Assembly: GCA_015227615.1 (NCBI GenBank)
Contig: JAALGZ010000019.1
Location: 496,001-560,000 of the forward strand
Origin: Labyrinthula sp. Ha
Lineage: Eukaryota > Sar > Bigyra > Labyrinthulida > Labyrinthulaceae
Length of the DNA stretch: 64,000 bases
Reading direction: 5' to 3'
This document shows, piece by piece, positions 6,706-52,109 of the stretch (the first letter of the stretch is position 1; every line of letters starts with the position of its first letter). The notes beneath the pieces were generated by a model. It ran no database searches and was not told where the DNA came from. It was given only the letters and a program-made list of their open reading frames with translations. Both the position numbers and the translations under genes were made by a program.

Positions 6706-6847
6706 ACTGAACAGACAAAGTTGGGATTGCCCAAAATACTTCTCTCGTTCACTCTGAGGAATTAACGAGAGCTGTTAAAGCAACAGTTTTATGTAAAATC
6801 TCTCTCATTAGATATGTCAACGAAACAAAGACATTATTTATAGCAGG

Positions 6848-6984
6848 TGGGGTAATTCCATTTCGAGTGTAACATAAATAGCTAATATTGTCGAGTTAAG
6901 CGTTAATACATACCAAGCGATACATATTTTCAAAAGATACAAAACGTCCCCAGAGGTAATCCGAAACCCCTGGGAAGTACGCCA
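6848..6984 (+). repeat. 5' LTR
   Basis: A 137-bp direct repeat, identical base for base to the 3' LTR by eye, with TG...CA ends. It is short for a Ty3/Gypsy LTR. The bases just after it (AAGCTATAGCTTAGCG) do not start with the TGG expected of a tRNA primer-binding site, so the priming mode is unclear. Confidence 0.95.
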
Positions 6985-7014
6985 AAGCTATAGCTTAGCG
7001 AAAGAGTATAGAAA

Positions 7015-8652
7015 ATGAGTGAAGAGTTTTATGAGCTAGATGAGAGAGGCAATCCGAGGCCTCGAGTACCTAGACCTAGAAGTGCTAGTGGACTAGGAAC
7101 TCCAGAAAGTCCGGTGAGAAGAGGTCGTGTAGGCGCAGCTCCTGACACGCCGGGGGGTGCAGTGGAAGAGGTACCACCAGAAGTAGGTCCTAAGACAGAC
7201 GAAGAGGACCCTAGAAGTGGTAGAACCCCTGCACCAGGCTCTCCTTTGGGGAGCATCACGGCGGATGAATTTCTGACCACAATGATGGATCAGTTCAGGA
7301 GGCTGAACGTAGACACTGGCACCACTGGTCATGTGCAGAGAGGGAATTACAGCGCTAAGGGTGGCTTTCGTCCCCCTAAAATTAAAAAATTAGAAGCCCT
7401 GGACAGAGAAAAACTTGGAGAGTTCGTCCTGAGGATGGAGAAGATGCGAGAAAGGGCTGGTCAAACAGGAGTAGAGGTGAGTGTAACGGAATGGATGTCG
7501 ATGCACATTCTAGAACTTGTGGAAGCGCAGGAGGTGGACATTGAAAATGACGATGCGGTCATGACCTACCTCAAGGGACGCCTTAAGATCCTTAATGAGT
7601 CGCACCAGAGCCAGGTTTTGGGAAAGCTTCGAGGGTAATTGAATTGGCCGAGCGATGCTTTCACTGGGAAAGAGGTTTTGGAACGTTACATTCAGAAAGC
7701 AAGAGACCTTGTGGGCACGGCAAGGGTTAGTAACAAGACTGTGCAAAAGCAGATGCTGAGGATTTTAGTGGAAAAGCTGCCTTCGTACTTCGCGATGAGT
7801 TACGCTGATTTCAAGGAGAACCCAGAAGTAAGGACTTTAGAAGAATTCAGCAAGGCCATGGAGAATTACACGGCAGTGGAAAATATAAAAATTCGAGAAA
7901 GAAGGAGGAAAAAGTCACAATTAAAGAAATCATCTGCAAGAAGTTCCAAGGCTCAAGTAGCAGAACTGAGTAAGAAGATTGAGCAACTATAGAGCAGGAA
8001 CCGTCGAGAGGGACAGCCGCAGAACCAGTTTAGAGGTAGTGAAAGGATAAAGGTGCAGTGGAAGAGAAAGTGCAGGATATGTGGTTCTCTAACACACCTA
8101 ATGCTCCAGTGCCCTGACTTGAAGTGTTACAAGTGTTTAGGGAAAGGCCACATAGCCCGCAACTGCCCAGAAAATACAGAAAAGAACACAGGCAATAGCA
8201 AAGACAAGAGACAGGGAAAAGAAGGAAAAGGAAAACCCGAAGCGGGACAAGCTGTTGCGGAACCTATGAAATGCTCAGAGGAAGAGGAAACAATCGTTGA
8301 CGAAAAGGAAGAAAGCAGCTCTTCGGATACGTCCGCATCTCCAGTGACGGTTGGAAAAGATAGTACAAACGTGGAAAGAAGCGTTGGAAATATATACGTG
8401 AACAGCACAAATGCAACGAAAAGAACAACAATTGAAGCTTTAGACCCTGTTAAAGAGTTGTGGCTAGAGGTGGAAGGTTGTTTAGACAGTGGAGCCACTC
8501 ATACCCTCGCTGGATTCAATACATTTGGACATCTATGTACAGAAGTGAAGAGATGCCGCCCAATACCTGTATCCCTGGCAGACAAAAAAACAATAGTTTA
8601 TGTCTCAAGAGAAGGAATGATAGAGTTGAGAACTCACGTGGATAGTAAATGA
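7015..8652 (+). other. gag - zinc knuckle - protease region of the LTR element
   Basis: Structural-protein region of the retroelement. A proline- and acid-rich N-terminal stretch is followed by a helical, charged gag-like region (roughly 7330-7990). Near 8070-8175 come two CCHC knuckles, CRICGSLTHLMLQC and CYKCLGKGHIARNC, which bind genomic RNA in this family. A Lys/Glu-rich linker leads to the aspartic protease active site LDSGAT near 8480. This part is broken, with about three apparent breaks. Ty3/Gypsy families often separate or recode gag and pol, so part of the interruption could be normal for the family. Confidence 0.85.
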
Positions 8653-8685
8653 CCCACGCTTCTTGGTCAAGTTTGAATATTCCTC

Positions 8686-11600
8686 GTGGACTCCGACTTC
8701 CCAGAAATTCTTATTGGGAGGAAGGTCCTGGAAAAGTTTGGTTGCCTACCCGAGCAGAGACTAGGTAACTTTACTGAAGAAGAAAGGAAAAAGGAAGCAC
8801 CAGACAGGAGGAAACAGACAGCTAAAGAAGTAAAGGGGGTCAGCAAGATACACTTGAGGAGAGCTGATGGAGATGATGCTTCAGGAAAAGAGGGGAAGGA
8901 GGATAAGGCCGAGGAAAGAGACGAGAAAGAAATACAGGAGAAGATAAGACAGAGAAGGTTAATGGAGCAGCTGGGCTTGCCATCGCAAAGGCCACTTAGA
9001 TTCAAGGACCCTGACGAAGGTGACGACCTGGAACACCTAGAAGGAGCTACAGGTGGTGACAACGTGGTCATCCCCGTGGAGGAAATGGAGAAGGAGAAGC
9101 TGAAAGAGGGAGAAACATACACAGGAGAGGAAGAAGAAGCCAAGGCAGAGATAAGAAGTAAAGTAGAGGAGATGAGAAGGACTGCGCAGTTTTCTAATGG
9201 ATTTGTCGATAAAGTTCAAGATCTTCTTATTCTGCATTGGAAATGCTTCGCCTTGCCACAAAGTCGTATTGTTTTAAGTCGTCTCTCAGAAGTCAAGTGT
9301 ATCCTTAAGAAAAACGCTCCGGAATCGATTACAGTTAAAGCTAGAGCGGTGGGAGCACAAATGGAAGTATGGTTTAGAAATAAGTTAGCCATGATGGAGA
9401 AGATGGGCCTCATTCGACTAGCCAAGAAAATGGAGTCTAATTATGCGGCGAGAATATTCGTCGTGCCGAAGAAGGGCCCGGCAAAGTTTAGACTCGTCGT
9501 AAACATGAAGCCTCTTAACGCGTGGACGGTAAAGGTAGCGCACCAACTTCCCGTTTTGGAGCAGCAGCTTAATCATACGAGAGGTGCGGTGATTTACGGA
9601 TGCTTCGACATCCGTCCAGGGTATGACCAAGTTCCAGTCGAAGAGGGAAGTAAGAAATACTTTGGCTTGATGACGCCTTGGGGAACAGTCTATCATCAGT
9701 GTAGCTGTCCTCAAGGCTGTACCAATAGCCCAATGCTCTTTCAGCAGCTTATTGTCGAAGAAGTTCTGAAGGGGACCGGGTATTACGTGAACACTACAGA
9801 TGGGATAATACAATGGATTGATGACTCGTGCTTATTTTCAAGTTCTGAAGAGAAATATATTCAAGTGTTAACGTCGTTTCTTGAGCAGGTGGAGAAGATG
9901 GGGATAAGAATGTCCCTGAGGAAATGCGTTTTTGCTGCAAAGAAGGTTACTTATTGTGGGAGGATGCTAAAAGATTCTGGGTGGAGCCTCTTGCCAGAGT
10001 ACTACAGGAAAATACTCAGGACAAGCAAGCCCCAGTATCACCACGAACTTGCAGAAATCGTTTATTTAGCTACATGGCTAAGCCCCACAATACCCCAGCT
10101 TTCTAAAATTAGAGCAGACCTTACGGGGCAGGTCGACTTATCGGGATCTATGAAGCGATTGAAAGCACTGAATATACCTTTGAAGTGGAACAGAAAACTA
10201 GAGAAGACATGGAATAACTTCCTCAAAGAGGTGTCGAAGGCTGCGAAAAGATACCTGGCAATATACGACCCGGATCTGGAGCTAAATATATTCTCCGATT
10301 CGAGTGACTTATTCTGGAGCTGCGTAGTTACACAGTGTAGCAGTGGGGAGCTCAACAAGGAAGACTTTTTACAGCAGAGGCATCGTCCAATAATGTTTTT
10401 CTCTGGAAAGTTCACAGGTTCGCAGCTGAAGTGGCATATTAGTAGCAAAGAAATGTACCCGATGATCGCCTGCACAGCAAGGATCGATTATTTGATATTG
10501 GGCCATCCCACACCTTGCAACTATTTCACGGATCACAAAAATCTGGTATACATTCTTTCGCCCACGGCCGCGGACAAGAGAAGTTATGTGGATAGACTTC
10601 ACCGATGGAGCTTGAGGCTGCAAAGGTTCAACGTCGCAGTGAGACACATCGAAGGAACCAGAAACGTATTCGCGGACATGCTAAGTAGATGGGGCAACGA
10701 AAGCAGTCTCAAGGAGGTGCAGCTACCCGGGGAACCAGCAGCAGCGGAAAGTAACATTGCGATAAGAGAAGGGGAGGAAGAAACGAAGCCGGAAGCAGGG
10801 GATATTGAGGTGGAGCAGAACGTTAGGAGAATAACGAGAAAATCCATGAAGTTAGCCAAGAATAATCAAGAAGCAAAGGAATACCTGAAGGAGCTAGACG
10901 GATATAGAATTGAATTATTCAGCCCGCTGTTTAAAGAGAAGTGGAAAACGATATCTGAAGCCGAGGTCAGAAGGGAGCAGCGAGTTAGCAGCAAGTTAAA
11001 GCCGGAGGAAGAAAGGCTCTTTAAGGAAAGGAAGGGATATATTCTTAGGAAGAAAGGCAAAATATGGATACCTGAAAAACTTGTTGCGAAGCTCATATTG
11101 CATAACCATTGCAGCGAAGGCCATTTCTCGGAACGTAGGGAGTTGCAGACACTGAAATCAAGATATTCTTTCGAGCCTGTTAAAGACCAGGAGCTGAAGC
11201 AGATGATCCGGCAAATAAGAAGGAAGTGTCTTCATTGCGACAAGGGGCCAAAGTTAATTAGGAGGCCGAGAAGCATAACGCAACTGGGACGTAGACCAAG
11301 GGAAGTCCTTTTAATGGACTACCTCTACGTCGACAAAAGTGGTTATATTTTAGTTATAGTGGACTCTCTGTCACGGAAATGCCAGTTAACTTTTCACAAG
11401 GAATGTACAGCTTATGGAGCAGCGAAGAGCTTATTGAGGTGGAGAAACGATGTGGGATTTGTCCAAGGCTTTATCTTATTCACTGACAGAGGCAGCCATT
11501 TTTGCAACGAGTTATTTACCCAGATGCAGAAGCTTTTCAAGTTCACGCAGCACTTTGCTATAAGTTATAGCCCGTTCACGAATGGCGGAGTTGAGACGAC

Positions 11601-13797
11601 GAATGGGCCGATACTTAAGTACCTAAGATCCCTCGTCAGTGAGTATCGTCTTGAAGAAGGCCAATGGCCTGACCTTATTGAGCAGATCGCATATTACATG
11701 AATAAAGCTCCATCATCTAGTAACGACGGATTGTCACCAAATGAAGTAATCATGTTGCACAAAGATGAGGGCACGCTGCTTAGCAAAGAGGACTGGGCCC
11801 TACCGCTCCGGGATGTGGAAACAGGAAGAGTTAACTGGAGAACTCCTAGGGACGCAGGGAAGGTTGAGGGCCATATCCGTGACATGCAGTCGAGACTAGA
11901 GGAGATCTGGCAGCGTACCTACCAATATACATCACTTCTTAGGGACAAGAGGAACGCGTCCTGGAATAGCAAGAAGGCTGTTAAGGTGGTCCAGTTCGGG
12001 GAAGGCGACTGGGTCATGCTCTCAAGAGCTGGCACGCACACGGATAGATTCAAGACAAAGCTCAAGTGGACTGGACCCTATAAAATTATGAGAACCCTTT
12101 CAGGAAACGTCTACGAGATCGAGTCGCTGCAGGGCAAGAAGACCACGGCCCATTCCACGCGCCTCATTTGGTATGAGCCAGAGGGTTATATCCCAAGTGC
12201 TGAGGTGGTGAAGCAGTTCGCCTCCGATGCAGGGCAGCTTGAAGTGCAACAGTTCACCGGCTTGAGATATGAGAACGGTAGATATGAACTGTGCACACGA
12301 TGGAAAGGATTTACCGAAGCAGATGACACGTGGGAGCCACTGGATGTGATGTGGGAGGACGTGAAGCACGTTGTAGAAGCTTTCTTTAGAAAGAGGAGAG
12401 AGGATCGGATGATAAGAGAAGCAAAAGTTTTCCTGGAGACGGCAGAACAGAGAGTAAGAGCAGCAAAGTTTTGGGATGTATATGAAGACGAGGTGCTCAT
12501 AGGGGCAATAAGAAAGCACGGAGTTGGGAACTATTCGGCGATCCTGAGCAAGAACTATTTACCAGGGAGATCCAAGCAGGCACTTTATTTTAGAACGCAG
12601 CAGCTGTTGGGAAAGCAGTCAATCTTCGAATATAGATTGCTTAGGCTGGATGCGAGAGCTGTGGCGAGGTTCAATGCGCAGAGGTATGGTGTTGAGTTCT
12701 ACAAGGAAAAGACCAGAGTGATCCCAAGATGGGAATCCTTAGCTAAAAGATGGTTCAACTTGAAGAGGTTCGGCCTCAAGAGTAGTGCGGAGCTTGAGCA
12801 CGTAGCATTTTATAGGAAGAAATCCAATATGCAAGAGAAACAAGAGTCGCTTGAATACCTAAAGATGGCGAAGGTTAGAGAGAAGTTCAAAGGGAATATT
12901 CTCCCTAGAAACATGGACATCGAGGAGACCATAAATAAGCTTGAAGAAGAAGTAGCGGAACACAAGAGGCTGGAAATGCGAAAGGTAGAAAAAGGAAAAC
13001 AGCTGGAGGCAATCCTTGAGGAGTTCCGGTCCAGAAGAGCTTCAAAACTTGGTCGGGATGAATACGCGTCAAGGAACGATGAAAGGTTAAAGGCGAAGCG
13101 CATTGGAACGACGTGGATGTATGAAGTCTTCAGTGGAAACATCTCACTGGGTACTGGACTTATTCCGCCACCTGGAGCATATTCTGTTTGCGCCGATGTG
13201 AAAACACTGGATTGGGATGAGTTTATTCGAACTATGTTGAGAATAGGGTTTGGAATGCCTGAGGTAATGATTATCGACCCTCCATGGCGTGTCGCACCAG
13301 CGAACCCTTCACGCGGAGTAGCATTGAGATACAAGACGCTTTCTGACAACGACATCCAGGCCATCCCCATAAGTAGACTGGTTCCAAGAGGTCTCGTATT
13401 CTACTGGGTAGCAAAAAGTAAGGCCAAGATGGTTCGTGGGTGGATGAAGCAAGCCGGCTACAAGGAAAAAGGCCGTATCGTCTGGGTGAAGTTCTCGGAA
13501 AAGAAGTTGGTTCAGCCGGGGCCAGGAAACTTGGTGGCTACAGCTACAGAGAAGTGCATAGTTTTCCAGAGGGGAATTCTACCGAGCACGATGATGCAGG
13601 CTCATCTCGGTAGCGATGTGATCCTGGCACCTAGAAGACCGGATAGCAGGAAGCCGCGGGAACTAAGGAGCAGAATTGAAGCATGTTGTGGAGGATGCGC
13701 GAAGATAGAGATTTTTGGAAGAAAACCTGAAGTTGACAAGAACTGGCTCGTGGTCGGAGATGAGCTGGGATATACGTCACATGTTTTCAGAAATTAG
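8686..13797 (+). CDS. Pol polyprotein: RT, RNase H, integrase, chromodomain, SANT-like, MT-A70 methyltransferase
   Basis: One 1703-codon open frame. Residue numbers count from the first codon. RT: LVVNMKPLN near 270 and the active site WIDDS near 377, where YxDD is usual. RNase H: FSDSSD near 536 to a conserved HIEGTRNVFADMLSRW. Integrase: HNH/CLHC zinc-binding region 806-850, then catalytic D878, D934 and E970, the D-x55-D-x35-E spacing of Ty3/Gypsy. Chromodomain about 1186-1236 (RWKGFTEADDTWEPL). SANT/Myb-like segment about 1258-1310 (DEVLIGAIRKHGVGNYSAIL). MT-A70 domain about 1480-1700 with DPPW at 1531-1534, RIVWVK, KIEIFGRK and KNWLVVGDEL, which match the SAM-binding and active-site blocks of METTL3/IME4-type RNA or DNA adenine methyltransferases. 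The METTL3 CCCH fingers are absent. The domain order is directly readable; enzyme activity is inferred. Confidence 0.93.
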   Translation: MDSDFPEILIGRKVLEKFGCLPEQRLGNFTEEERKKEAPDRRKQTAKEVKGVSKIHLRRADGDDASGKEGKEDKAEERDEKEIQEKIRQRRLMEQLGLPSQRPLRFKDPDEGDDLEHLEGATGGDNVVIPVEEMEKEKLKEGETYTGEEEEAKAEIRSKVEEMRRTAQFSNGFVDKVQDLLILHWKCFALPQSRIVLSRLSEVKCILKKNAPESITVKARAVGAQMEVWFRNKLAMMEKMGLIRLAKKMESNYAARIFVVPKKGPAKFRLVVNMKPLNAWTVKVAHQLPVLEQQLNHTRGAVIYGCFDIRPGYDQVPVEEGSKKYFGLMTPWGTVYHQCSCPQGCTNSPMLFQQLIVEEVLKGTGYYVNTTDGIIQWIDDSCLFSSSEEKYIQVLTSFLEQVEKMGIRMSLRKCVFAAKKVTYCGRMLKDSGWSLLPEYYRKILRTSKPQYHHELAEIVYLATWLSPTIPQLSKIRADLTGQVDLSGSMKRLKALNIPLKWNRKLEKTWNNFLKEVSKAAKRYLAIYDPDLELNIFSDSSDLFWSCVVTQCSSGELNKEDFLQQRHRPIMFFSGKFTGSQLKWHISSKEMYPMIACTARIDYLILGHPTPCNYFTDHKNLVYILSPTAADKRSYVDRLHRWSLRLQRFNVAVRHIEGTRNVFADMLSRWGNESSLKEVQLPGEPAAAESNIAIREGEEETKPEAGDIEVEQNVRRITRKSMKLAKNNQEAKEYLKELDGYRIELFSPLFKEKWKTISEAEVRREQRVSSKLKPEEERLFKERKGYILRKKGKIWIPEKLVAKLILHNHCSEGHFSERRELQTLKSRYSFEPVKDQELKQMIRQIRRKCLHCDKGPKLIRRPRSITQLGRRPREVLLMDYLYVDKSGYILVIVDSLSRKCQLTFHKECTAYGAAKSLLRWRNDVGFVQGFILFTDRGSHFCNELFTQMQKLFKFTQHFAISYSPFTNGGVETTNGPILKYLRSLVSEYRLEEGQWPDLIEQIAYYMNKAPSSSNDGLSPNEVIMLHKDEGTLLSKEDWALPLRDVETGRVNWRTPRDAGKVEGHIRDMQSRLEEIWQRTYQYTSLLRDKRNASWNSKKAVKVVQFGEGDWVMLSRAGTHTDRFKTKLKWTGPYKIMRTLSGNVYEIESLQGKKTTAHSTRLIWYEPEGYIPSAEVVKQFASDAGQLEVQQFTGLRYENGRYELCTRWKGFTEADDTWEPLDVMWEDVKHVVEAFFRKRREDRMIREAKVFLETAEQRVRAAKFWDVYEDEVLIGAIRKHGVGNYSAILSKNYLPGRSKQALYFRTQQLLGKQSIFEYRLLRLDARAVARFNAQRYGVEFYKEKTRVIPRWESLAKRWFNLKRFGLKSSAELEHVAFYRKKSNMQEKQESLEYLKMAKVREKFKGNILPRNMDIEETINKLEEEVAEHKRLEMRKVEKGKQLEAILEEFRSRRASKLGRDEYASRNDERLKAKRIGTTWMYEVFSGNISLGTGLIPPPGAYSVCADVKTLDWDEFIRTMLRIGFGMPEVMIIDPPWRVAPANPSRGVALRYKTLSDNDIQAIPISRLVPRGLVFYWVAKSKAKMVRGWMKQAGYKEKGRIVWVKFSEKKLVQPGPGNLVATATEKCIVFQRGILPSTMMQAHLGSDVILAPRRPDSRKPRELRSRIEACCGGCAKIEIFGRKPEVDKNWLVVGDELGYTSHVFRN

Positions 13798-13800
13798 GTT

Positions 13801-13830
13801 GAGGTCATGGGATTGACCTCAAAGGGGCAA
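13801..13830 (+). promoter_or_regulatory. hairpin and polypurine tract before the 3' LTR
   Basis: A perfect 7-bp inverted repeat, GAGGTCA...TGACCTC, with a 6-nt loop (13801-13820) lies 3 nt after the Pol stop codon. It is followed by the purine-rich AAAGGGGCAA touching the LTR. The tract position fits plus-strand priming. The role of the hairpin is unknown. Confidence 0.6.
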
Positions 13831-13967
13831 TGGGGTAATTCCATTTCGAGTGTAACATAAATAGCTAATATTGTCGAGTTAAGCGTTAATACATACCAAG
13901 CGATACATATTTTCAAAAGATACAAAACGTCCCCAGAGGTAATCCGAAACCCCTGGGAAGTACGCCA
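13831..13967 (+). repeat. 3' LTR
   Basis: A 137-bp LTR identical to the 5' copy, followed by the CAGG target duplication. It ends 97 bp before the start codon of the first Mob-like gene, so its transcription signals lie inside that gene's upstream region. Confidence 0.95.
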
Positions 13968-14064
13968 CAGGTAAAAACTCAACAGATTCAACATACTCAA
14001 AATTTAACAAACATAAACAAACGAAAAGAATAATTTAATTATAATACAACAAGCAAAAAACAAG

Positions 14065-14754
14065 ATGGACTTCAACTACGCTCCTGCTAAGAAATCAGTG
14101 AAGAACAGAAATGCAACTTTTTTCCGGCCAAGGTTGCGGCAGAATACGACATACTCAGATCTTCTCATCCCTGCACAAAAGGAAGGAGATAGTTACATAG
14201 CTTATTATGAAGAGGAGTGGATAGCTGATAATGTGACAGATTTCTATGAGAAATTGGGTGATTTCCTGTGTTTGTATGTTTTCAGTAACACAAGTTTTCA
14301 AAACGCCTTTGAGGAAGGTTTAGTAGAGAATTACGGTTATCCACCAAAGTTTGCGTATAAATGGAAGGAAAAAGAACAAGACAAACCGGAAGTTTTATTA
14401 GGCAACATTTATATAGAAAAGTTATTTGGTTGGCTTGAAACGGTGATTGATGAAGAAAATACTTTTGATGGGCTTGTGGATGTACAGTATCCAGAAGATT
14501 TCAGGTATAGAGTTCGGATGATTATGAAACGCATGTTTCGTATTTTTACTATTGTTTATTTCAACCAACAGTTTCTTAAGTTAACTAGTGGTAAAGATTT
14601 ATCTTATACCTTGGATCCTTTGTTTAAGCATTTTATATGGTTTTGTTGGGTTTGGAATTTTCTCCCTGAAAAAGAAGAAAAAGCTATTATAGAAAAAGTT
14701 GCATCTCTAAAAGAGGAATTTAATGAAACGAAAGAAAAGCATTATACATATTAA
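14065..14754 (+). CDS. Mob1/phocein-like protein, copy 1
   Basis: 229 residues. Mob proteins are kinase coactivators that bind NDR/LATS-type kinases in mitotic exit and Hippo-like signalling. Family landmarks: EEWIADNVTDFYEKLGDF (about 52-70), GYPPKFAYKW, a long acid-rich link, then DFRYRVRMIMKRMFRIFTIVYF and LFKHFIWFCWVWNFL, which match the conserved C-terminal helices of Mob1. The two Cys and two His that bind zinc in canonical Mob1 are replaced: no Cys near GYPPKF, and FNQQF where Mob1 has H-x4-H. It is therefore a divergent, probably zinc-less Mob. Single exon; the ATG follows an A-rich leader. Two related copies follow in the same direction. The LTR element is inserted 97 bp upstream of the ATG. 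Confidence 0.82.
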   Translation: MDFNYAPAKKSVKNRNATFFRPRLRQNTTYSDLLIPAQKEGDSYIAYYEEEWIADNVTDFYEKLGDFLCLYVFSNTSFQNAFEEGLVENYGYPPKFAYKWKEKEQDKPEVLLGNIYIEKLFGWLETVIDEENTFDGLVDVQYPEDFRYRVRMIMKRMFRIFTIVYFNQQFLKLTSGKDLSYTLDPLFKHFIWFCWVWNFLPEKEEKAIIEKVASLKEEFNETKEKHYTY

Positions 14755-15313
14755 AAAGTGTTTTTTTTTAGCAAATTGAGTTTTGCTGAAAAAGTCTATC
14801 TTATTTTAAAAAACCTGTTTTCAGTTACAGAGGAAACCTTAGTAAGACTCCTACTTTTCCGATTAATTATAAAAAAAGGGAGTTTGAAGCCCATTTTCCC
14901 AACAAGAAGATTTCCCTTTTTTTTCTGTAGAGTCGTCATTTTTACCAAAGCTTTTGGTCATGTAGGTAGAAAAAAGTTGAACCAAATCTAATTCAGGAAG
15001 TCAGCGTCTGACCAGCTTCAAATCTTTCAGATTCACTGTAATCGGTTTCGTGAATAATAAAAGGATAGTGCTTGAAACTAATCCTTTAGTCTGCCTGGAA
15101 GCATTTATATTTTTGTGTTTGTTTTTAGTTTCAAGAGCTTGCTATTTTTTCAGATAAAGTGTTCCATAAAATCTATTCGATTTAAATTTCATTCTGTATA
15201 TATACTGTCCAAAAAGGACAAGTGTAACAAAACTGTTCATACTTCGAAATTAATAGCAAATTCATCTTAGTTTTAAAAGTTTCCTTTTCATCGCTGCTTA
15301 AATTTGAATTTAA
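14755..15313 (+). other. intergenic between Mob copies 1 and 2
   Basis: The 77-codon frame at 14758-14991 does not begin with ATG, starts in a T-run right after the Mob stop and has no protein character. I see no gene here. The stretch presumably holds the 3' UTR of copy 1 and the promoter of copy 2. Confidence 0.5.
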
Positions 15314-16054
15314 ATGCATATACAGAATTTAGATGCACTTCCACCACCTGATAAGGGATACCAATCTCCAGAAGAAGCTGTATATAACCCATATGGCAAA
15401 AAGTACGTTTCCTTTCCAAATGCTGATATAAAAGTTAACGAAAAAAGTTTGTACAAAAGAATTCTTTCTCCTGAAGATTTATATGAGACTGAAGATCAAA
15501 ATATTAAAGAAGATAAATGGATGGCTGAAAATGTCACTGAGTTTTATTTTGAATTAAGCCATTATACTAAGATCATTATCGTTGAAAATATGAAGTTTGA
15601 AGAATATTGTGTAAGAGGTAAATTAGTTAATAATGGATATCCAAGGGATACTTTCTACAGATTTAAAGATAGTGAAGGCAGGTTTGAAGGCTTTTTGCCA
15701 GTGAATGCTTACGTCAAGAAAGTATGCGAGTGGATTGAGAAAGAATTAGAAGATGAAGAACTTTTCCCTGTTGATGGCATAAAGGGTTTTCTTCCGGATT
15801 TCAGGTATAGAATTGGGAAGATTATGACCAGCATGTTTCGTATCTTTGCTATTATATATAGTAATTATGAGTTCATAGTTGATGTGAACGATATTAATCT
15901 AGCTGAAACTTTGGATTCATTGTTTAAGAAGTTTATGTATTTTTCTTGGAAATGGAATCTTATACAGAAAAGGGAGATGATTTGTATTTGGCATAAGATA
16001 AAGCCATTTGAAGAAGAGTATAAACTTGAGGAAGCAAGATTTAAAGCGTATTAA
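15314..16054 (+). CDS. Mob1/phocein-like protein, copy 2
   Basis: 246 residues, homologous to copy 1 along its length: DKWMAENVTEFYFELSHYTK, NNGYPRDTFYRF, KVCEWIEKELEDEELFPVDG, FRYRIGKIMTSMFRIFAIIY and LFKKFMYFSWKWNLI. The order and spacing are those of the Mob1 fold. The ELFP segment is closer to canonical Mob1 (DETLFP) than in copy 1. As in copy 1, the zinc-binding His pair is lost (YSNYEF in its place) and the Cys pair is not conserved. The N-terminal 60 residues are variable and Pro/Tyr-rich. Single exon. It is probably a kinase-binding Mob paralogue that lost zinc; the partner is unknown. Confidence 0.82.
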   Translation: MHIQNLDALPPPDKGYQSPEEAVYNPYGKKYVSFPNADIKVNEKSLYKRILSPEDLYETEDQNIKEDKWMAENVTEFYFELSHYTKIIIVENMKFEEYCVRGKLVNNGYPRDTFYRFKDSEGRFEGFLPVNAYVKKVCEWIEKELEDEELFPVDGIKGFLPDFRYRIGKIMTSMFRIFAIIYSNYEFIVDVNDINLAETLDSLFKKFMYFSWKWNLIQKREMICIWHKIKPFEEEYKLEEARFKAY

Positions 16055-17196
16055 GTATGTGAGTTTTGAAAGGGAAGAGTTGCTTTAGTCGGTTTCAATA
16101 AGGAGGTTCTCTTGGTTTTGATACTTTGAAGACTCTATATACTGATAATTATCCACGATATCTTGTTTTTGTTTGTGAAGTGGATGAAATTCTCTTTTTA
16201 AACTTTTGCATTGTCGCGGTTGGGTTTTTATTTGCGCTTGAGAAATATGTGCACGAAGACTATAGCTGGAAGAAGAATAGAAGAAGGTTTTCTTATTCAT
16301 TTTATATTTTTTCTTACTGCTCCCTTTGGTATATTGAGGAATTCGGAATATTAAACTAAGACTTCGTGGGTCTCATTCGTGAACAAATAATTGGAAAATA
16401 TAAATTTACAGAGAATTTCCTACTGCTCTTAAAATATATAAAAAATGTACATCTGAGTTTAGACCATAATACCCTTCCAGTTGTTATTCCAAAGAATGCG
16501 CTATTTACAGCACAATATGAGCATATATAAATCGTCTTGGAAACGTGTAGTTATATTCCTCTTTGAAAATGAGAACTCTGTTATTTCTCCAATAGCATAC
16601 TTGGCTTAAGACCGATTTTCTATTGTGTTCACAAATTGTTAGGTAGTAAGGATGCCAAAATGTAGGAAAACTGGGCTAATGGAAAAATTCTAGTAGAAGA
16701 ACAATATAGTCTTATATCATAGTATCTATTAATTATCAAAGAACATGATTCAGTATAGTTTCTTGTGTCTTAACTAATAACTAGTACATCAATATATTAT
16801 ATTTGGTCCTTTAAGTCATAATTGTATACACACATGGTAACTATATAGTGTAACAGACTGTGAAACTCGGGTTTAGCTCTTTTTTTGTACAGAACTAGAG
16901 TTAGAATTTTTTAAATAGCCACCTGAGTTTTATTTCATTGCATGTCCGCAACGTACTTAATGGAGCAAATGCTCCAAGAAGTCCTTTTATGTCTAAAATA
17001 ACCCAAACAAAACTTCGCGTTAAATAGTTAAGCTAACATACAACCAAACTATCTATAAAACTGTATAACTTTAATAGTTGTTTTTTCTAAAATTTGTTTT
17101 ACTTTTTATGTGTTCATCTTGGACATATTTTGTTCCAATATTTTATTTCGGTGAAATTATTACCAGAACAACTATTCTAACTAAATAGAATAACAT
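16055..17196. other. gene-free stretch
   Basis: No supportable gene. The 77-codon plus-strand frame at 16126-16359 begins with TTG and shows no family motif. The stretch separates Mob copies 2 and 3 and is strongly AT-rich. Confidence 0.45.
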
Positions 17197-17837
17197 ATGA
17201 AGACAAACTTTTTAAAATAAATATTAAAAAAGCTTAAACCAGCGAAAGATCCCGAGACACATGACTCTTCTTTTCCTAGTCTGGAGTCACATGTAAAAAC
17301 CGAAGTTGTTCCGGATTGGCAAATAGAAGCATGCAACCACTTAGTTTCTCCTCCTAGACCTTTGTACGAAGAGACCCCTGGTTACCCAAGAGAAGAGTTC
17401 CAATATTTCCAGGAAACAATATATCAAGTTATACTCGTACCTGAATATGAGATTCAAGATAATGAGCCTTTTCAATCTGAGAAAGAGTGGGTATCTGCAA
17501 ATGTGATTAAATTTTATAATGAAATAGTTTACTTTAATGCTGCTGTTGTTTTCCAGAATTATATTTTTGAAAATACTTATGCAGCTGATCATCTATTACA
17601 TGAAGGTTATCCACCAGGAGTTCGATATATCTGGAGCGATAATGAGAATGAACCCGATAGAGTCCTGCCAGTGAATAAGTACCTTGAGAAAGTTTTGGAA
17701 TGGAGCGACAAAGAAATGGAAGATTTAGAAATTCTCTTCAACGTAAGGTAGATGCACTTCAAAAAGATTTCAGATATATGTTCAATGATTTTCTTAATCG
17801 AATGTTTCATGTCATTTCTATTTTTTATTATAACTAG
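17197..17837 (+). pseudogene. Mob1/phocein-like protein, copy 3, broken
   Basis: A third tandem Mob paralogue. An ATG at 17197 opens the right frame but meets a TAA at 17218-17220. The frame is then open through KEWVSANVIKFYNEIVYF, HEGYPPGVRYIW and VLEWSDKEMEDLEILFN. At about 17742 a 5-bp insertion (GTAAG) shifts the frame; the following DALQKDFRYMFNDFLNRMFH is clearly Mob sequence in another frame. The last Mob helices (the HF-x-x-F-x-W region) are missing because a dispersed repeat begins at about 17836. So there is one stop, one frameshift and a 3' truncation in a host-gene duplicate. Confidence 0.75.
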
Positions 17838-42009: not shown

Positions 42010-43917
42010 ATGAAGTTAAAAAGTGTTGTGTTTGGTGTGCTGACTTCTTTCTTTTCATTGAGGGCTAATGCTCAGGACCTGGACTTTACTATTTTGCATA
42101 TTAATGACATGCACGCACGAGTTCGTGGTATGGTTGGCACTGGAGGCTGCTCTACTACTCAATTAGAAGCCGGGGAGTGTGATGGAGGTTGGAGTAAGTT
42201 ATTGACCGCTGCCAAAGATTTTGTAGCACAGAGCGAGAATCCTGTAATTTTTATTGATAATGGAGATCAATTTGCTGGTACCATCTGGTCCAGTTTTTAC
42301 AGAGGCGTTGAAGCGTATACATTCAAGAACATCCTGTGTGAAGAAGCCGGTTTTTTTCTCTGCCTTTCAGGAGTAGGAAATCATGAATTTGATTTTGGGT
42401 ATGAGCCTGTGTACACTTACGTCAATTCTTCCAATCACCAGTACATTAACTCTAACATTGTTGACACTTGCGCAGAAAATTCGCAAGGAACGCATGAGGC
42501 TAGTGGAATAGGAAATCTTCTAGCTGACTCCCTAGTGGTAGAAATTTCAGGAACTTCAGTTGCTTTTGTTGGTTATGTTACCCCAGAAACTCCGAGCATA
42601 TCATCCCCTCCTGATTGCCTACTGTTCTTGGATGAAGAAGAAGCACTTGAGCCTATCTTAGGAAACCTTGCATCTGATGGAGTTGAAGTGGTAATCGTAA
42701 TTGGACATTCGGGAGTTATTAAAGACCTTGAAATTTCCTCGAGGTTTGAGTCGGATATCGATCTAATTGTAGGTGGTCATAGCCATACTTTCTTGTGGAA
42801 TGAAGCTGAACAAGGTGCTGTTCCAGCACAGGGGAGACCTTACACTGATGATGCTGGTGATGTAAGTGGAATTAGACAAGATACTCCTACAGGTTTGTAT
42901 CCTATCTTTGCTGATGGCTCCAATGTTCCTGTTGTTCAGGCTTACTTTGGTGGAAGGTATTTGGGAGCTGTTTCATTGAGCTTTTCAAATGGAAACCTCA
43001 CTAACTTTACGCGGGGAGCAATTATTATGGCTGACTCAAGATCAAGGGTAGCTGATCAAACCACTTCTTTTGTTGTTGATGCGGATATGGAAGTCGCCAT
43101 CAAGGATCTTCAGGGTCCATTGAATGTCTTTGCCCAGACTCCTGTAGGTAATGTTTCTGTCACCTTTGATGACAGTGTTAATGCAGGAAGGAGGATCATA
43201 GTACAGGAAATGCCACTTGGAAATGTTTGTTGTGATGCTATGCTTGCATCAATCAATTCAAAGTCTGAGGGGAATGCCGACATTTGCATGCAAAATGGAG
43301 GTGGAATTAGAGCGGCGATTGAAGCAGGAAACGTGACTTTTGAAGATGTTATCACTGTCTTTCCTTTTGGTAATGTTCTCTCTGTACTCCAGTTTACTGG
43401 AGAAAGAGTTCATGCGGCATTAGAGCATAGCTTTGCAAGAGTTGGAACCTTTAGTGGGGAGTTCATGCAGTTTAGTACTGGTTTTCAAGTATATTATGAT
43501 CCACTTGCCGAAGCTGGCTCTAGAGTTATCAATGTATCTCTTAATGGATTACCTATTCTAAACGATAGTTCTAGGACTTATGATGTTGTGACAAATAGTT
43601 ACATTGCAGGAGGAGGTGATGGTTACAACGAGATTTTTACGGATGCTCCTGTTATTTTGCAACTTGGTGATCCACAGGAAGATGCACTTGCTGATTACAT
43701 TGAACAGAATCCAGGTTTATGCCAGGAATTAGATGGAAGAATTATTCCGATACAAAACCCTGTAGATGTTGAGGGAAATGTGATTGATGTCTTAAGTGTG
43801 CAGTTTCCTTCTTGTGAGTCTGATGCAAGTAGTGCGATGTCTAGTTTTAATCCATCTACGAGTGTGCTTATGCTTTTGAATGTTGTTCTGCTTAACTTTT
43901 TGGTACCAGCGATTTAA
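42010..43917 (+). CDS. secreted, probably GPI-anchored 5'-nucleotidase, single unit
   Basis: 635 residues. A signal peptide (1 to about 22, ending RANAQ) leads directly into the metallophosphatase domain: ILHINDMHAR (D-x-H metal site), IDNGDQFAGT, GVGNHEFDFG, VIGHSGV and LIVGGHSHTFL. The substrate domain follows: LGNVCCDAM, QNGGGIRAAIEAG, VFPFGNVLSVL and GGGDGYNEIF. The last about 35 residues end in a hydrophobic tail (LMLLNVVLLNFLVPAI) after a Ser/Asn-rich stretch, as in GPI-anchored ecto-5'-nucleotidases (CD73/UshA family). It hydrolyses extracellular nucleoside monophosphates to nucleosides, a purine-salvage role. Single exon. The mirror copy (48432-52109) carries two such units; this gene resembles its first unit. 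Confidence 0.93.
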   Translation: MKLKSVVFGVLTSFFSLRANAQDLDFTILHINDMHARVRGMVGTGGCSTTQLEAGECDGGWSKLLTAAKDFVAQSENPVIFIDNGDQFAGTIWSSFYRGVEAYTFKNILCEEAGFFLCLSGVGNHEFDFGYEPVYTYVNSSNHQYINSNIVDTCAENSQGTHEASGIGNLLADSLVVEISGTSVAFVGYVTPETPSISSPPDCLLFLDEEEALEPILGNLASDGVEVVIVIGHSGVIKDLEISSRFESDIDLIVGGHSHTFLWNEAEQGAVPAQGRPYTDDAGDVSGIRQDTPTGLYPIFADGSNVPVVQAYFGGRYLGAVSLSFSNGNLTNFTRGAIIMADSRSRVADQTTSFVVDADMEVAIKDLQGPLNVFAQTPVGNVSVTFDDSVNAGRRIIVQEMPLGNVCCDAMLASINSKSEGNADICMQNGGGIRAAIEAGNVTFEDVITVFPFGNVLSVLQFTGERVHAALEHSFARVGTFSGEFMQFSTGFQVYYDPLAEAGSRVINVSLNGLPILNDSSRTYDVVTNSYIAGGGDGYNEIFTDAPVILQLGDPQEDALADYIEQNPGLCQELDGRIIPIQNPVDVEGNVIDVLSVQFPSCESDASSAMSSFNPSTSVLMLLNVVLLNFLVPAI

Positions 43918-48431: not shown

Positions 48432-51400
48432 CTAATTCATCAAATGTGCAAGAACAAGAGCTACAACTGAAGTGCAAATCGAAGCAACTGAAGAAAGGCT
48501 TGCAGCTCCTTCAAAAGACAAAACTGGACACTCTTCTCTATCTTCATCACTGCACACTTCATAGTTATCAGCTGCATTGGGGTTCTCGTCGTTAGATAAT
48601 CTTCCCTCAACCTCGGCACAGCTTGGACAAAAAACACCCAAATAAGTTACAAAGGCTTCTTCCTGTGGATCTCCATTCTCCAAAAATCGTGGGGCACCAG
48701 TCATAATTTCACCATAGTTATCACCTCCATTCGCTATAAAGTTGTTTGTGACTAATAATAAGTTGGTGTCCTCATCGTTTCGGTCAAGTTCAACCCCATT
48801 TAAGAAGAATGAACTGATTCTTGCGCCCTCCGCTCTTGAGTTATTGTAAGTGATATTTACTCCAGAAGAGGTTTGCGGGAATGCTCCAACATCGCCCTCT
48901 AGACCAAACTCGAATGCAGCAAACAACCTTGCAGGGGTGAACTCTAGTACAGAGAGTACGTTAGAGAACGGTAGGACCGAAATAACATCTTCATAGGTTA
49001 CGATTCCAGCTTCAAGGCTTGCCCTGATTCCACCTCCGTTTTGAATACAGGCATCTACCTGAGTACCCTTCTGCGCTAAGTTGTACACCATAGAGTCACA
49101 GATTAAGTTACCCAAAGGAGTTTCTTCCAGTCTAACACGAGTTTGATCAAGAAGAACAGGAGTATACCCTACAGCTGTAGAGCCAAATACTTGAAGAGGA
49201 ACAAATAGTTCATCAATCAACTCTTTCATGTCTTCATCCTCGGCATAACCTTTGCTTGGGTCAACATCAACTTCTCCAGAAACTTCGTCAACCCCAGTTG
49301 CACCTACAACAGGTGAATTCTCATTGGCCAAAAGAACAGACTTTCTCTCTAAGGACACCAAATCACCAGTAGAAATTGAAAAAGTAAGTTCAACAGCCCC
49401 TAAGTACCTTCCACCAAAGTATTGCTGCAGAACAGGTGTAGTACTTTCATCAGCAAAGACAGGATATACATCAGATGGCGAGTCTTGCCTAATTCCACTT
49501 ACAGCTCCTTCATCATCAGTCGCAGGTCGACTCTGTGCTGGAACTGGACCTTGCTCAGCTTCATTCCAAAGGAAGGTATGTGTATGCCCACCAATTATTA
49601 AATCCACCTCAGGATGACTGGTTGCAACTTCGAGATCCTTGTTGATACCAGAATGTCCGATCGCAATGAAAATACTTACACCATCTTCAGCAAGTGCATC
49701 AATCTCATTCTGAATTGCTTCACCTTCCTCCGAGAAAGTGAGACAATCAGGAGGTGAACTGATGCCTGGAGTTCCTTCAAGCGTATATCCGACAAACCCA
49801 ACTGATACTCCTGAAATATCAACGACACTACTTTTCTTAAAATAACTTCCAAGTTCACCTTCATCATGTTCACCCTCTGCATTTTCAGCACAGCTGTCAT
49901 CGATATTAGCGGTAATAATATCATGCTCCATATTACGCGCCATATCAAGTAGAACTTCATACCCGAAGTCAAACTCATGGTTTCCCATTCCCGAGAAACA
50001 ATAAGCGAAACCAGCACCGTTTTCTGGGTCACAAAGCAGGTTTTCAAACGTATACACTTCCGTTCCCTGATAGAAAGTTGACCAAGAAGTTCCAGCAAAC
50101 TGATCACCATTATCTATGAAGATAACAGGGTGATCAGACTCTTCAACAAACCTCTTTCCAGCAGCCATCAACCTAGCCCATCCACCATCACATTCTGCAG
50201 CATCATTCTGCTCGGTGCTGCACCCACCAGTTCCTCTCATTCCTTGAACTCTGGCATGCATGTCATTGATATGTAGGATGGTAAACGTTACAGAGTCTTG
50301 AGCTTCACATGAAGGGAACTCCACACCAAGTACGTCAATTTCATTTCCATCAATGTCGACTGGATTTTGGATAGGGATAATTCTTCCCTCTAGTTCTTGA
50401 CACAAACCTGGGTTGTCCGCGATGTAATCAGCAAGTGCATCTTCCTGTGGGTCACCAAGTTCGAGAATAACTGGGGCCTCTGTAAAAATTTCTCCATAAC
50501 CATCCCCACCAGCAGCGATGAAACTATTTGTAACAACATCAAAAGTTTGGGAATCATCGTTTAGGATTTCTTCCCCATTAAGAGAAACATTAATGACTCT
50601 GTCTCCAGCATCAGCAAGTGGATCATAATATACTTGGAACCCTTCACCAAAATGCAAGAACTCACCATTGTCGGTTCCAACCCTTTCAAAACCATGTTCC
50701 AAAGCTGCAAAAACTCTTTCTCCTGTAAACTCTACAACTGAAAGAACATTAGCGAAAGGAAACACGGTGATAACTTCTTCAAAAGTAACATCACCTTCTT
50801 CGATCGAGGATCTAATTCCTCCTGCATTTTGCATACAGATATCAGCATTTCCTTCGGAATTCGAGTTAATTGCTGCCATCATTGCATCACAAGCAACATT
50901 TCCAAGTGGCATCTCTTGCATTCTAATTCTTCTAGCCCCATCTACACTGTCTTCAAAGGTAACTCCCACAGTACCAACCGGGGTTTGAGCAAAGACATTC
51001 AAAGGTTCCTCAAGCTCCTCAATTGCTACTTCCATGTCTGCATCAACGTCAAATGCAGTCGTTTGATCAGCAACAGGTGACCTTGTATCTGCAACAATAA
51101 TTGCCTCTCGTGAAAAATCAGTTAGGTTCCCGTTTGAGAAGCTCAAGGAAACAGCACCTAAGTATCTTCCACCAAAGTATGCCTGAACAACAGGAACATC
51201 TGAATCATCAGCAAAGATAGGATATAGCCCTGTAGGTGTGTCCTGTCTGATTCCAGTTACAACACCTTCATCATCAGTTACTGGTCTACCTTGAGCAGGA
51301 ACTGCCCCTTGTTCAGCTTCATTCCACAAGAAAGTATGACTATGACCACCAACGATGAGATCAATGTCGGATTCAAACTCTGTTGAGATTTCAAGGTCCC

Positions 51401-52109
51401 TAAGTACTCCAGAATGTCCAATAACGATCACAACATCAACTCCTTCAGAAGAAAGGGTATCTAAGATAGGCTCAAGTGCTTCTTCTTCATCCAAGAACTG
51501 TAGGCAATCAGGAGGGGATGATATGCTCGGAGTTTCTGGGGTAACATAACCAACAAAAGCAACTGAAGTTCCTGAAATTTCTACCACTAGGGAGTCAGCT
51601 AGAAGATTTCCTATTCCACTAGCCTCATGCGTTCCTTGAGAATTTTCCGCACAATTGTCAACAATATTTGAGTTAATGAACTGATGGTTTGATGAGCTTA
51701 CATAGTTGTAGAGGGGTTCATAACCAAAATCAAACTCGTGATTTCCTACTCCAGAAAGACAAAGAAAGAAGCCGGCCTCTTCGCACAGGATGTTCTTCAA
51801 TGTATACACCTCAAGACCTTGGTAGAAGCTTGACCAGATAGTACCAGCAAATTGATCTCCGTTATCAATAAAAATTACAGGGTTCGCACTTTCCTCAACA
51901 AAATCTTTTGCAGCTGTCAAAATCTTACTCCATCCCCCATCACACTCACCAGCTGCTAGCTGTGAAGCAGAACATCCTCCAGTGCCAACCATACCGCGAA
52001 CTCTAGCATGAAAATCATTGATGTGCAAAATAGTAAACTCCAAGTCTTGTGCATAGGTATTTTGCACAAGAAACGGCGTCACCAGTCCCAAAACACTTTT
52101 AAACTTCAT
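48432..52109 (-). CDS. secreted, probably GPI-anchored 5'-nucleotidase with two tandem catalytic units
   Basis: 1225 residues, about twice the family's usual 550-650. After a signal peptide (ends NTYAQ) unit 1 (about 21-600) has ILHINDFHAR, IDNGDQFAGT, GNHEFDFG, VIGHSGV, GGHSHTFL, QNAGGIRSSIEEG and AAGGDGYGEIF. Unit 2 starts near 605 (VTFTILHINDMHARVQG) and repeats every motif: IDNGDQFAGTSW, GMGNHEFDFG, AIGHSGI, GGHTHTFL, QNGGGIRASLEAG, LPFSNVLSV and NGGDNYGEIM. A hydrophobic C-terminal tail (SVASICTSVVALVLAHLMN) suggests a GPI anchor. Unit 1 lacks its own anchor signal and runs straight into unit 2. In unit 1, QNAGGI replaces QNGGGI. All metal ligands seem present in both units, so both may be active. 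Unit 1 is nearer to the arm-A gene than to unit 2. Confidence 0.93.
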   Translation of the reverse strand: MKFKSVLGLVTPFLVQNTYAQDLEFTILHINDFHARVRGMVGTGGCSASQLAAGECDGGWSKILTAAKDFVEESANPVIFIDNGDQFAGTIWSSFYQGLEVYTLKNILCEEAGFFLCLSGVGNHEFDFGYEPLYNYVSSSNHQFINSNIVDNCAENSQGTHEASGIGNLLADSLVVEISGTSVAFVGYVTPETPSISSPPDCLQFLDEEEALEPILDTLSSEGVDVVIVIGHSGVLRDLEISTEFESDIDLIVGGHSHTFLWNEAEQGAVPAQGRPVTDDEGVVTGIRQDTPTGLYPIFADDSDVPVVQAYFGGRYLGAVSLSFSNGNLTDFSREAIIVADTRSPVADQTTAFDVDADMEVAIEELEEPLNVFAQTPVGTVGVTFEDSVDGARRIRMQEMPLGNVACDAMMAAINSNSEGNADICMQNAGGIRSSIEEGDVTFEEVITVFPFANVLSVVEFTGERVFAALEHGFERVGTDNGEFLHFGEGFQVYYDPLADAGDRVINVSLNGEEILNDDSQTFDVVTNSFIAAGGDGYGEIFTEAPVILELGDPQEDALADYIADNPGLCQELEGRIIPIQNPVDIDGNEIDVLGVEFPSCEAQDSVTFTILHINDMHARVQGMRGTGGCSTEQNDAAECDGGWARLMAAGKRFVEESDHPVIFIDNGDQFAGTSWSTFYQGTEVYTFENLLCDPENGAGFAYCFSGMGNHEFDFGYEVLLDMARNMEHDIITANIDDSCAENAEGEHDEGELGSYFKKSSVVDISGVSVGFVGYTLEGTPGISSPPDCLTFSEEGEAIQNEIDALAEDGVSIFIAIGHSGINKDLEVATSHPEVDLIIGGHTHTFLWNEAEQGPVPAQSRPATDDEGAVSGIRQDSPSDVYPVFADESTTPVLQQYFGGRYLGAVELTFSISTGDLVSLERKSVLLANENSPVVGATGVDEVSGEVDVDPSKGYAEDEDMKELIDELFVPLQVFGSTAVGYTPVLLDQTRVRLEETPLGNLICDSMVYNLAQKGTQVDACIQNGGGIRASLEAGIVTYEDVISVLPFSNVLSVLEFTPARLFAAFEFGLEGDVGAFPQTSSGVNITYNNSRAEGARISSFFLNGVELDRNDEDTNLLLVTNNFIANGGDNYGEIMTGAPRFLENGDPQEEAFVTYLGVFCPSCAEVEGRLSNDENPNAADNYEVCSDEDREECPVLSFEGAASLSSVASICTSVVALVLAHLMN

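Follow-up and report, generated by a model that had tools for sequence, protein, structure and literature searches.

MTA1-like and p1-like domains on a chromodomain LTR retrotransposon family of Labyrinthula, a candidate mobile writer of N6-methyladenine

The genome of the labyrinthulid Labyrinthula sp. Ha contains a family of long terminal repeat (LTR) retrotransposons in which the Pol protein continues, past an integrase and a chromodomain, into segments that by sequence comparison are homologous to two subunits of a four-subunit cellular DNA adenine methyltransferase: the catalytic subunit MTA1 and the DNA-binding subunit p1. The copy described here lies in a window of 64,000 nucleotides (GenBank assembly GCA_015227615.1, contig JAALGZ010000019.1, positions 496,001 to 560,000 of the forward strand, renumbered from 1) and is classed by its LTRs, its target-site duplication and its domain order as a Ty3/Gypsy-type element. 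The family shares this architecture, has moved in the past and is present in many copies. We consider it probable that the lineage captured an AMT1/MTA1-type catalytic subunit together with a p1-type partner and writes N6-methyladenine in DNA (6mA) on its own cDNA or new copies, which would then resemble permissive chromatin. More tentatively, and as somewhat less likely than not, we propose that AMT1 plus p1 is a single-chain 6mA writer carried by an ancient and diverse superfamily of chromodomain LTR elements, which would oppose silencing by placing the active mark of the host on their own new copies.

The cellular MTA1 complex (MTA1c) consists of MTA1 (AMT1), MTA9 (AMT6-7), p1 and p2 and is known from ciliates, green algae and early fungi. 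The element has homologues of two of these four subunits, both on one chain behind an integrase and a chromodomain; MTA9 and p2 were not found in it. In the cellular complex, MTA1 is catalytic and loses nearly all activity on D209A substitution, p1 helps to bind DNA, and MTA9 is a non-catalytic partner (PMC9852454). The subunits p1 and p2 co-occur exclusively with AMT1, and in the AMT1-encoding species surveyed, 6mA is located at ApT near transcription starts and tracks expression (PMC12695648).

The whole element spans positions 6849 to 13967 of the window, with LTRs at both ends and CAGGT on each side (Table 1). If the preceding T is included in the 5′ LTR, this repeat becomes 137 bp long, with TG...CA ends and a 4-bp duplication. 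The two LTRs are identical, which suggests a recent insertion, and the purine-rich run adjoining the 3′ LTR resembles a polypurine tract and may act as one. The order of domains is gag zinc knuckle, protease, reverse transcriptase (RT), RNase H and integrase, followed by a chromodomain C-terminal of the integrase. An earlier note, made from the sequence letters alone, had described one open frame running from RT through integrase, chromodomain and a SANT/Myb-like segment into an MT-A70 domain; the Pol frame is indeed open throughout, with its Pfam matches in that order. The D-x55-D-x35-E integrase triad given in that note is exact, and the DPPW, WVK and FGR...NW blocks were all located in Pol, the latter two at residues 1600 and 1677; the tail begins in frame at 12238 rather than at 12236. 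The profile PF05063 gives a complete MT-A70 match (84.4 bits against a cut-off of 23.9, covering model positions 2-172 of 172). In the sister copy P0002, the chromodomain match is above the Pfam cut-off (1.3e-8). Translation of gag (7015-8650) meets two stops, so the window copy is probably not autonomous as it stands.

Compared by sequence with solved structures, the tail matches Tetrahymena MTA1 (AMT1) best (3.4e-35), ahead of METTL3 (1.7e-18) and METTL14 (4.3e-8), and MTA1 ranks first in all three lineages tested (that of the window and two others). In an equal-core comparison, the MTA1 score exceeded the METTL3 score in 60 of 60 element rows (P0001 and P0002 are counted among them although they duplicate L002 and L007). 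The margin is just 0.2-6 bits in L046, L047, L048, L050 and L051 (C145, C73, C110, C101 and C83), and that lineage may therefore differ in substrate. The family comparison excluded AMT2/5 and AMT6/7, save for the MTA9 chains in the structure collection. METTL3-METTL14 and the element have the MT-A70 fold and DPPW in common, whereas the NP(T/S)RG stretch that follows DPPW in the element enzyme and in AMT1 is not in human METTL3. The METTL3/IME4-type identity assigned in the earlier note is accordingly rejected, MTA1/AMT1 being closest.

In trees of 53 sequences (thinned from 78, with one METTL3 as outgroup), 34 element enzymes, including P0004 from another assembly, form one clade beside 18 AMT1s and are not nested among these cellular enzymes. 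Support for the element clade (SH-aLRT/UFBoot) is 76/82 with a profile alignment and 70.8/83 with a free MAFFT alignment; for the AMT1 clade, the values in the two trees are 78.8/65 and 92.1/86. Given the single outgroup, placement of the element enzymes rests on the tree together with score and motif, and an origin of the element MT-A70 on the AMT1 side of the family is supported but not settled. The tail was also modelled with AlphaFold2 (pLDDT 72.9, with the chromodomain part below 50; pTM 0.57). In a fold search the model matches MTA1c chains first (8.7e-18) and METTL3 next (1.9e-15), a result that is not independent of the sequence comparison because AMT1s are in the alignment behind the model.

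The segment between the chromodomain and the methyltransferase is Myb-like, as the earlier note had it, but is not a generic SANT module. Searched as a single sequence against the Protein Data Bank (PDB), it has p1 as its best match, and a four-member profile including P0004 gives 3.5e-17 for p1 and 4.4e-6 for p2, with 4.8e-4 as the best value among other Myb-type chains, which rejects a generic Myb or SANT identity. The match spans residues 24-97 of p1, extending beyond the Myb fold through LPG(K/R)S...TQ.LLG.QS, and on these comparisons the segment is a homologue of p1. The genome has at least 150 p1-like matches; at least 113 of the 150 listed are followed, within 1.03 kb and on the same strand, by an MT-A70 match, and none has one on the opposite strand within 3 kb. 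One of the 37 without a listed MT-A70 (C132:669717) is a merged-interval artefact. Four of the 37 were inspected: two are at contig ends, one has an MT-A70 outside the listed matches, and one is without MT-A70 in the 690 bases downstream.

The combination of an AMT1-type enzyme with a p1-like segment shifts the likely substrate from N6-methyladenosine in RNA (m6A) to 6mA in DNA, and we infer DNA N6-adenine methyltransferase activity for the tail. It is improbable that the enzyme instead writes m6A on element RNA, serving packaging, stability or evasion of RNA sensing in the manner of METTL3 on mRNA. MT-A70 folds do include both RNA and DNA enzymes, and the five near-ties mentioned above would suit an RNA writer, but every row leans to MTA1, p1 partners the DNA enzyme (PMC12695648), and Pfam and structure searches of the tail reported no further family known to bind nucleic acids. 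Such a writer would not be redundant in this host, since a METTL3 query in a six-frame genome search retrieved AMT1 first and then element-type places, with no METTL3 gene seen (introns could hide one); the host may therefore lack mRNA m6A writing.

The host AMT1 gene (L064:794-1774, on C91) matches MTA1 at 3.7e-73, groups loosely with thraustochytrid AMT1s in the tree and is single copy (721 bits versus 160 for the next best place). Its frame is open, so the host 6mA pathway looks present. This counts against a mainly host-directed effect, a very improbable reading in which element-made writers would supply or disturb genome-wide 6mA; in its favour, the 50.8-Mb genome (153 contigs) has at least 184 distinct MT-A70 places and just one of them is the host AMT1-type gene.

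The element is multi-copy: C103 and C13 each hold a further full-length copy, with 94% identity to that of the window over about 7.1 kb. Their target duplications (ACTCT and CCCTT) differ from that in the window. The C103 copy has two in-frame stops within the RT to RNase H stretch, and the frames of the C13 copy are broken. A search of the genome with the LTR gave 13 matches, of which ten pair by position around five 7.1-kb elements (the window copy and those on C103, C13, C63 and C132) and three are unpaired (on C1, C125 and C88). The tail lies between the LTRs in all five, in degenerate form in C63 and C132. An assembly chimera is contradicted by three insertions that each have a distinct target duplication, by over 100 linkages of p1-like and MT-A70 matches and by the recurrence of the order in an independent assembly; the chance that chimerism or fortuitous adjacency explains the fusion is negligible, and nothing was found in support of it. 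The three outcomes named as refuting in the earlier note (no other copy with the methyltransferase, no MT-A70 profile match, a chimeric assembly) thus did not arise. In L061 (C103, minus strand), gag, protease and the start of RT are in one open frame, and it would thus seem that the family makes gag-pol as one polyprotein, with no frameshift involved.

Searches of the genome gave at least 122 matches to the tail and at least 150 to PF05063. The 184 MT-A70 places combine 150 PF05063 places with 37 from further searches, after merging of overlaps and hand-trimming of some ends; tail matches covering only the chromodomain or the p1 part were excluded, and the number is a lower bound. At least 112 places have a p1-like match just upstream, and 72 have none among the matches listed, so that membership in an element is not implied for every place. 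Some sit in open frames of 1,500-2,660 aa. The relative from another assembly, P0004 (9.9-kb contig, source label ‘lgn’), is a 3,045-aa single-frame polyprotein with the order zinc knuckle, protease, RT, RNase H, integrase, chromodomain, p1-like segment and MT-A70. It was the only outside match in protein searches that need shared 5-residue words, a result by which rarity elsewhere is not established; the other three hits, P0001, P0002 and P0003, match L002, L007 and L032 of the Labyrinthula genome at 100% identity over 1,004, 1,043 and 604 residues. No relative of the element was found in the IMG/VR and GTDB contigs scanned. A sister lineage, L063:513-5903 (C2), encodes RT, RNase H, integrase, chromodomain, retropepsin (a weak Pfam match with DSGA) and MT-A70, an unusual position for the protease.

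The module is under purifying selection. Among three young copies, the ratio of nonsynonymous to synonymous substitution (dN/dS), calculated from few changes, is 0.10-0.20 for MT-A70, 0.21-0.42 for the p1-like segment, 0.16-0.28 for the chromodomain and 0.16-0.19 for the whole tail. Elsewhere in Pol it is 0.105-0.132 (RT part), 0.04-0.26 (integrase) and 0.02-0.12 (RNase H). Conservation was counted after broken or partial copies had been dropped: 87 open-frame MT-A70 pieces yielded 66 that passed the coverage rule and 59 that were distinct, one being the host gene; P0001 and P0002 are again included. Of the 58 element rows with good coverage, 57 have a letter at the position of the catalytic Asp, and all 57 keep this residue; R357 is present in 57 of 58 and S332 in 47 of 58. 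The Trp of DP(P/A)W is retained in 55 of 57 rows with a letter, and DPAW replaces DPPW in 13 of 57. The window copy keeps the S-adenosylmethionine (SAM) contacts D182, V183, D209, S332, R357 and E371 of MTA1.

These data also bear on what we see as the main rival explanation, namely that the tail is a targeting device, with chromodomain and p1-like segment (and MT-A70 mainly as a binding fold) steering the integrase, for example to promoters, and with catalysis secondary or lost in some lineages, including that of the window. We regard it as unlikely, if more credible than the other alternatives. The variation of SAM-contact residues in the window lineage is what it would predict, whereas the retention of DP(P/A)W in most lineages and an MT-A70 dN/dS as low as or below that of the p1-like segment are not. 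The ATG of a Mob1-like gene lies 97 bases beyond the downstream end of the window copy, as promoter targeting would have it, but the insertion sites are too few to carry the argument: the 3′ flank of the C103 insertion has no frame of at least 80 aa in 1.3 kb, and that of the C13 insertion has two short frames of 87 and 89 aa.

Capture of a 6mA writer, the explanation that we prefer, is supported by MTA1 as the best match, the p1 homology, the linkage of p1-like and MT-A70 matches, the low dN/dS, P0004 and the host AMT1 gene. In the mechanism we envisage, ancestors of the element captured the core of the eukaryotic pathway for writing 6mA in DNA, and both parts became fused behind the integrase chromodomain. 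Pol would thus bring its own writer into the nucleus along with the integrase, the p1-like domain and chromodomain would keep that writer on DNA and chromatin, and ApT sites on element cDNA or a freshly integrated copy would be methylated. If 6mA labels expressed genes in the host, new copies might then look like the 6mA-marked, permissive start regions of host genes, which would help them to escape silencing. With a chromodomain of HP1/MPP8 type, the writer might first dock on silent chromatin, as has been proposed for N4CMT (PMC8885841).

Several observations weigh against this mechanism. Neither an MTA9/AMT6-7-like partner nor p2 was found in the element by Pfam and structure searches of the tail, and the ciliate enzyme has four subunits; this objection is tempered by Trichomonas vaginalis, in which AMT1 is present without AMT6/7, p1 or p2 (PMC12695648). 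The window lineage lacks the full set of MTA1 SAM contacts (N360 is replaced by E and N370 by D), and N360 is retained in just 42 of 58 element rows; the P0004 type is an example of a lineage that has it. Since both residues contact SAM in MTA1, activity of the window lineage is not to be assumed. Integrase and RNase H have a lower dN/dS (0.02-0.06 in comparisons with the window copy) than MT-A70, the gag of the window copy is broken, and the trees, with one METTL3 as outgroup, give moderate support for separating the element enzymes from AMT1s. A chromodomain of HP1/MPP8 type fits silent rather than active chromatin, and its role could be to recognise copies already silenced or to bring silencing about. 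Finally, the surveyed species that encode AMT1 show no enrichment of 6mA on transposons (PMC12695648). The observed/expected ratio of ApT is 0.867 in the element and 0.863 in the rest of the window, and ApT content thus provides no footprint.

Chromoviruses have the same LTRs, the same order of RT, RNase H and integrase, and a chromodomain after the integrase; the element adds the p1-like segment and MT-A70, and its sister L063 places a retropepsin between chromodomain and MT-A70. DIRS elements use a tyrosine recombinase, whereas the window element has a D,D35E integrase. DIRS retrotransposons with N6-adenine methylases of bacterial Dam type have been described (as cited in PMC5890265), the enzyme of the window element being of MT-A70 type; the MT-A70 profile match and the integrase exclude a Dam-like DIRS methylase here. 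Captured cytosine methyltransferases are carried by LINE- and DIRS-like elements of Symbiodinium and by retrotransposons in charophytes, for which the authors suggested self-methylation of retrotranscribed DNA (PMC5890265). These are likewise DNA methyltransferases on retroelements, but act on cytosine C5, and the word chromodomain is absent from that text. The bdelloid rotifer N4CMT joins an amino-methyltransferase to an HP1-type chromodomain in a ‘histone-read-DNA-write’ arrangement and places an N4-cytosine mark on transposons (PMC8885841). A chromodomain is fused to a DNA amino-methyltransferase in both cases, N4CMT being a bacterial N4-cytosine enzyme in a host gene and not transposon-borne.

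Capture of DNA methyltransferases by retroelements is therefore known in principle; what is new here is the enzyme family, the captured partner and the scale. In the open-licence papers that we searched, no transposable element was seen to carry an MT-A70/AMT1 enzyme or p1, which is not proof of absence; if the proposal is true, this would be a mobile element using eukaryotic-type 6mA, for which the same literature held no earlier report. Transposons are generally presented as the objects of silencing DNA marks, and here a retrotransposon lineage owns an apparent relative of the writer of an expressed-gene mark, along with that writer's DNA-binding partner. The family offers a direct test of whether writing 6mA suffices to keep a new insertion active. 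It would also supply a natural AMT1-p1 fusion, of use since the enzyme of ciliates requires four subunits, and some thirty natural variants of the catalytic domain that have diverged from one another (the tree has 34).

Table 1. Features of the element in the window (positions of the window; aa, residues of Pol)
Feature	Position	Strand	Basis
Target-site duplication CAGGT, left copy	6844..6848		Sequence read, partner at right end
5′ LTR, 136 bp	6849..6984	+	Sequence comparison
gag frame, first part, broken here	7015..7638	+	Open frame list
CCHC zinc knuckle and protease active site CLDSGAT (from ~8479)	8053..8652	+	zf-CCHC 2.5e-7; protease by motif only
Pol open frame, 1,703 aa, methyltransferase at its end	8686..13797	+	Open frame
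Reverse transcriptase, aa 260-425	9463..9960	+	Pfam RVT_1 3e-23
RNase H, aa 528-648	10267..10629	+	Pfam RT_RNaseH 1.7e-16
Integrase core, D878/D934/E970	11290..11595	+	rve 6e-7, 30.1 bits, under cut-off of 32.6; triad spacing 55/35
Chromodomain, HP1/MPP8-like	12238..12432	+	Pfam Chromo 0.0081, under cut-off; phmmer MPP8 9.8e-7, CBX3 1.5e-6
p1-like (AMTP1) Myb/homeobox segment	12433..12885	+	p1 top PDB match 2.5e-8; Pfam Myb 0.0019, under cut-off
MT-A70 domain, probable AMT1/MTA1 type, DPPW at aa 1531	13261..13764	+	PF05063 1.1e-23; structure matches
Purine-rich run adjoining 3′ LTR on its 5′ side, polypurine-tract-like	13821..13830	+	Sequence
3′ LTR, 136/136 bp same as 5′ LTR	13832..13967	+	Sequence comparison
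Target-site duplication CAGGT, right copy	13968..13972		Sequence read

Elsewhere in the window, where GC content ranges from 27 to 47% in 2-kb blocks and Rfam gave no match, the Mob1/phocein-like gene directly downstream of the insertion (14065-14754, by Pfam) is followed by a probable second one (15314-16054). Both genes, and a further stretch, have a 63-bp repeat in common (within 14065-17828). Two 5′-nucleotidase/metallophosphatase frames (42010-43917 and 48432-52109) have a GC content above their surroundings, and one of them, of 1,225 aa, has each domain in two stretches. Finally, a Roc-COR GTPase frame is found at 665-2380 and a protein with cyclic nucleotide monophosphate (cNMP)-binding and RGS domains at 59961-62171.

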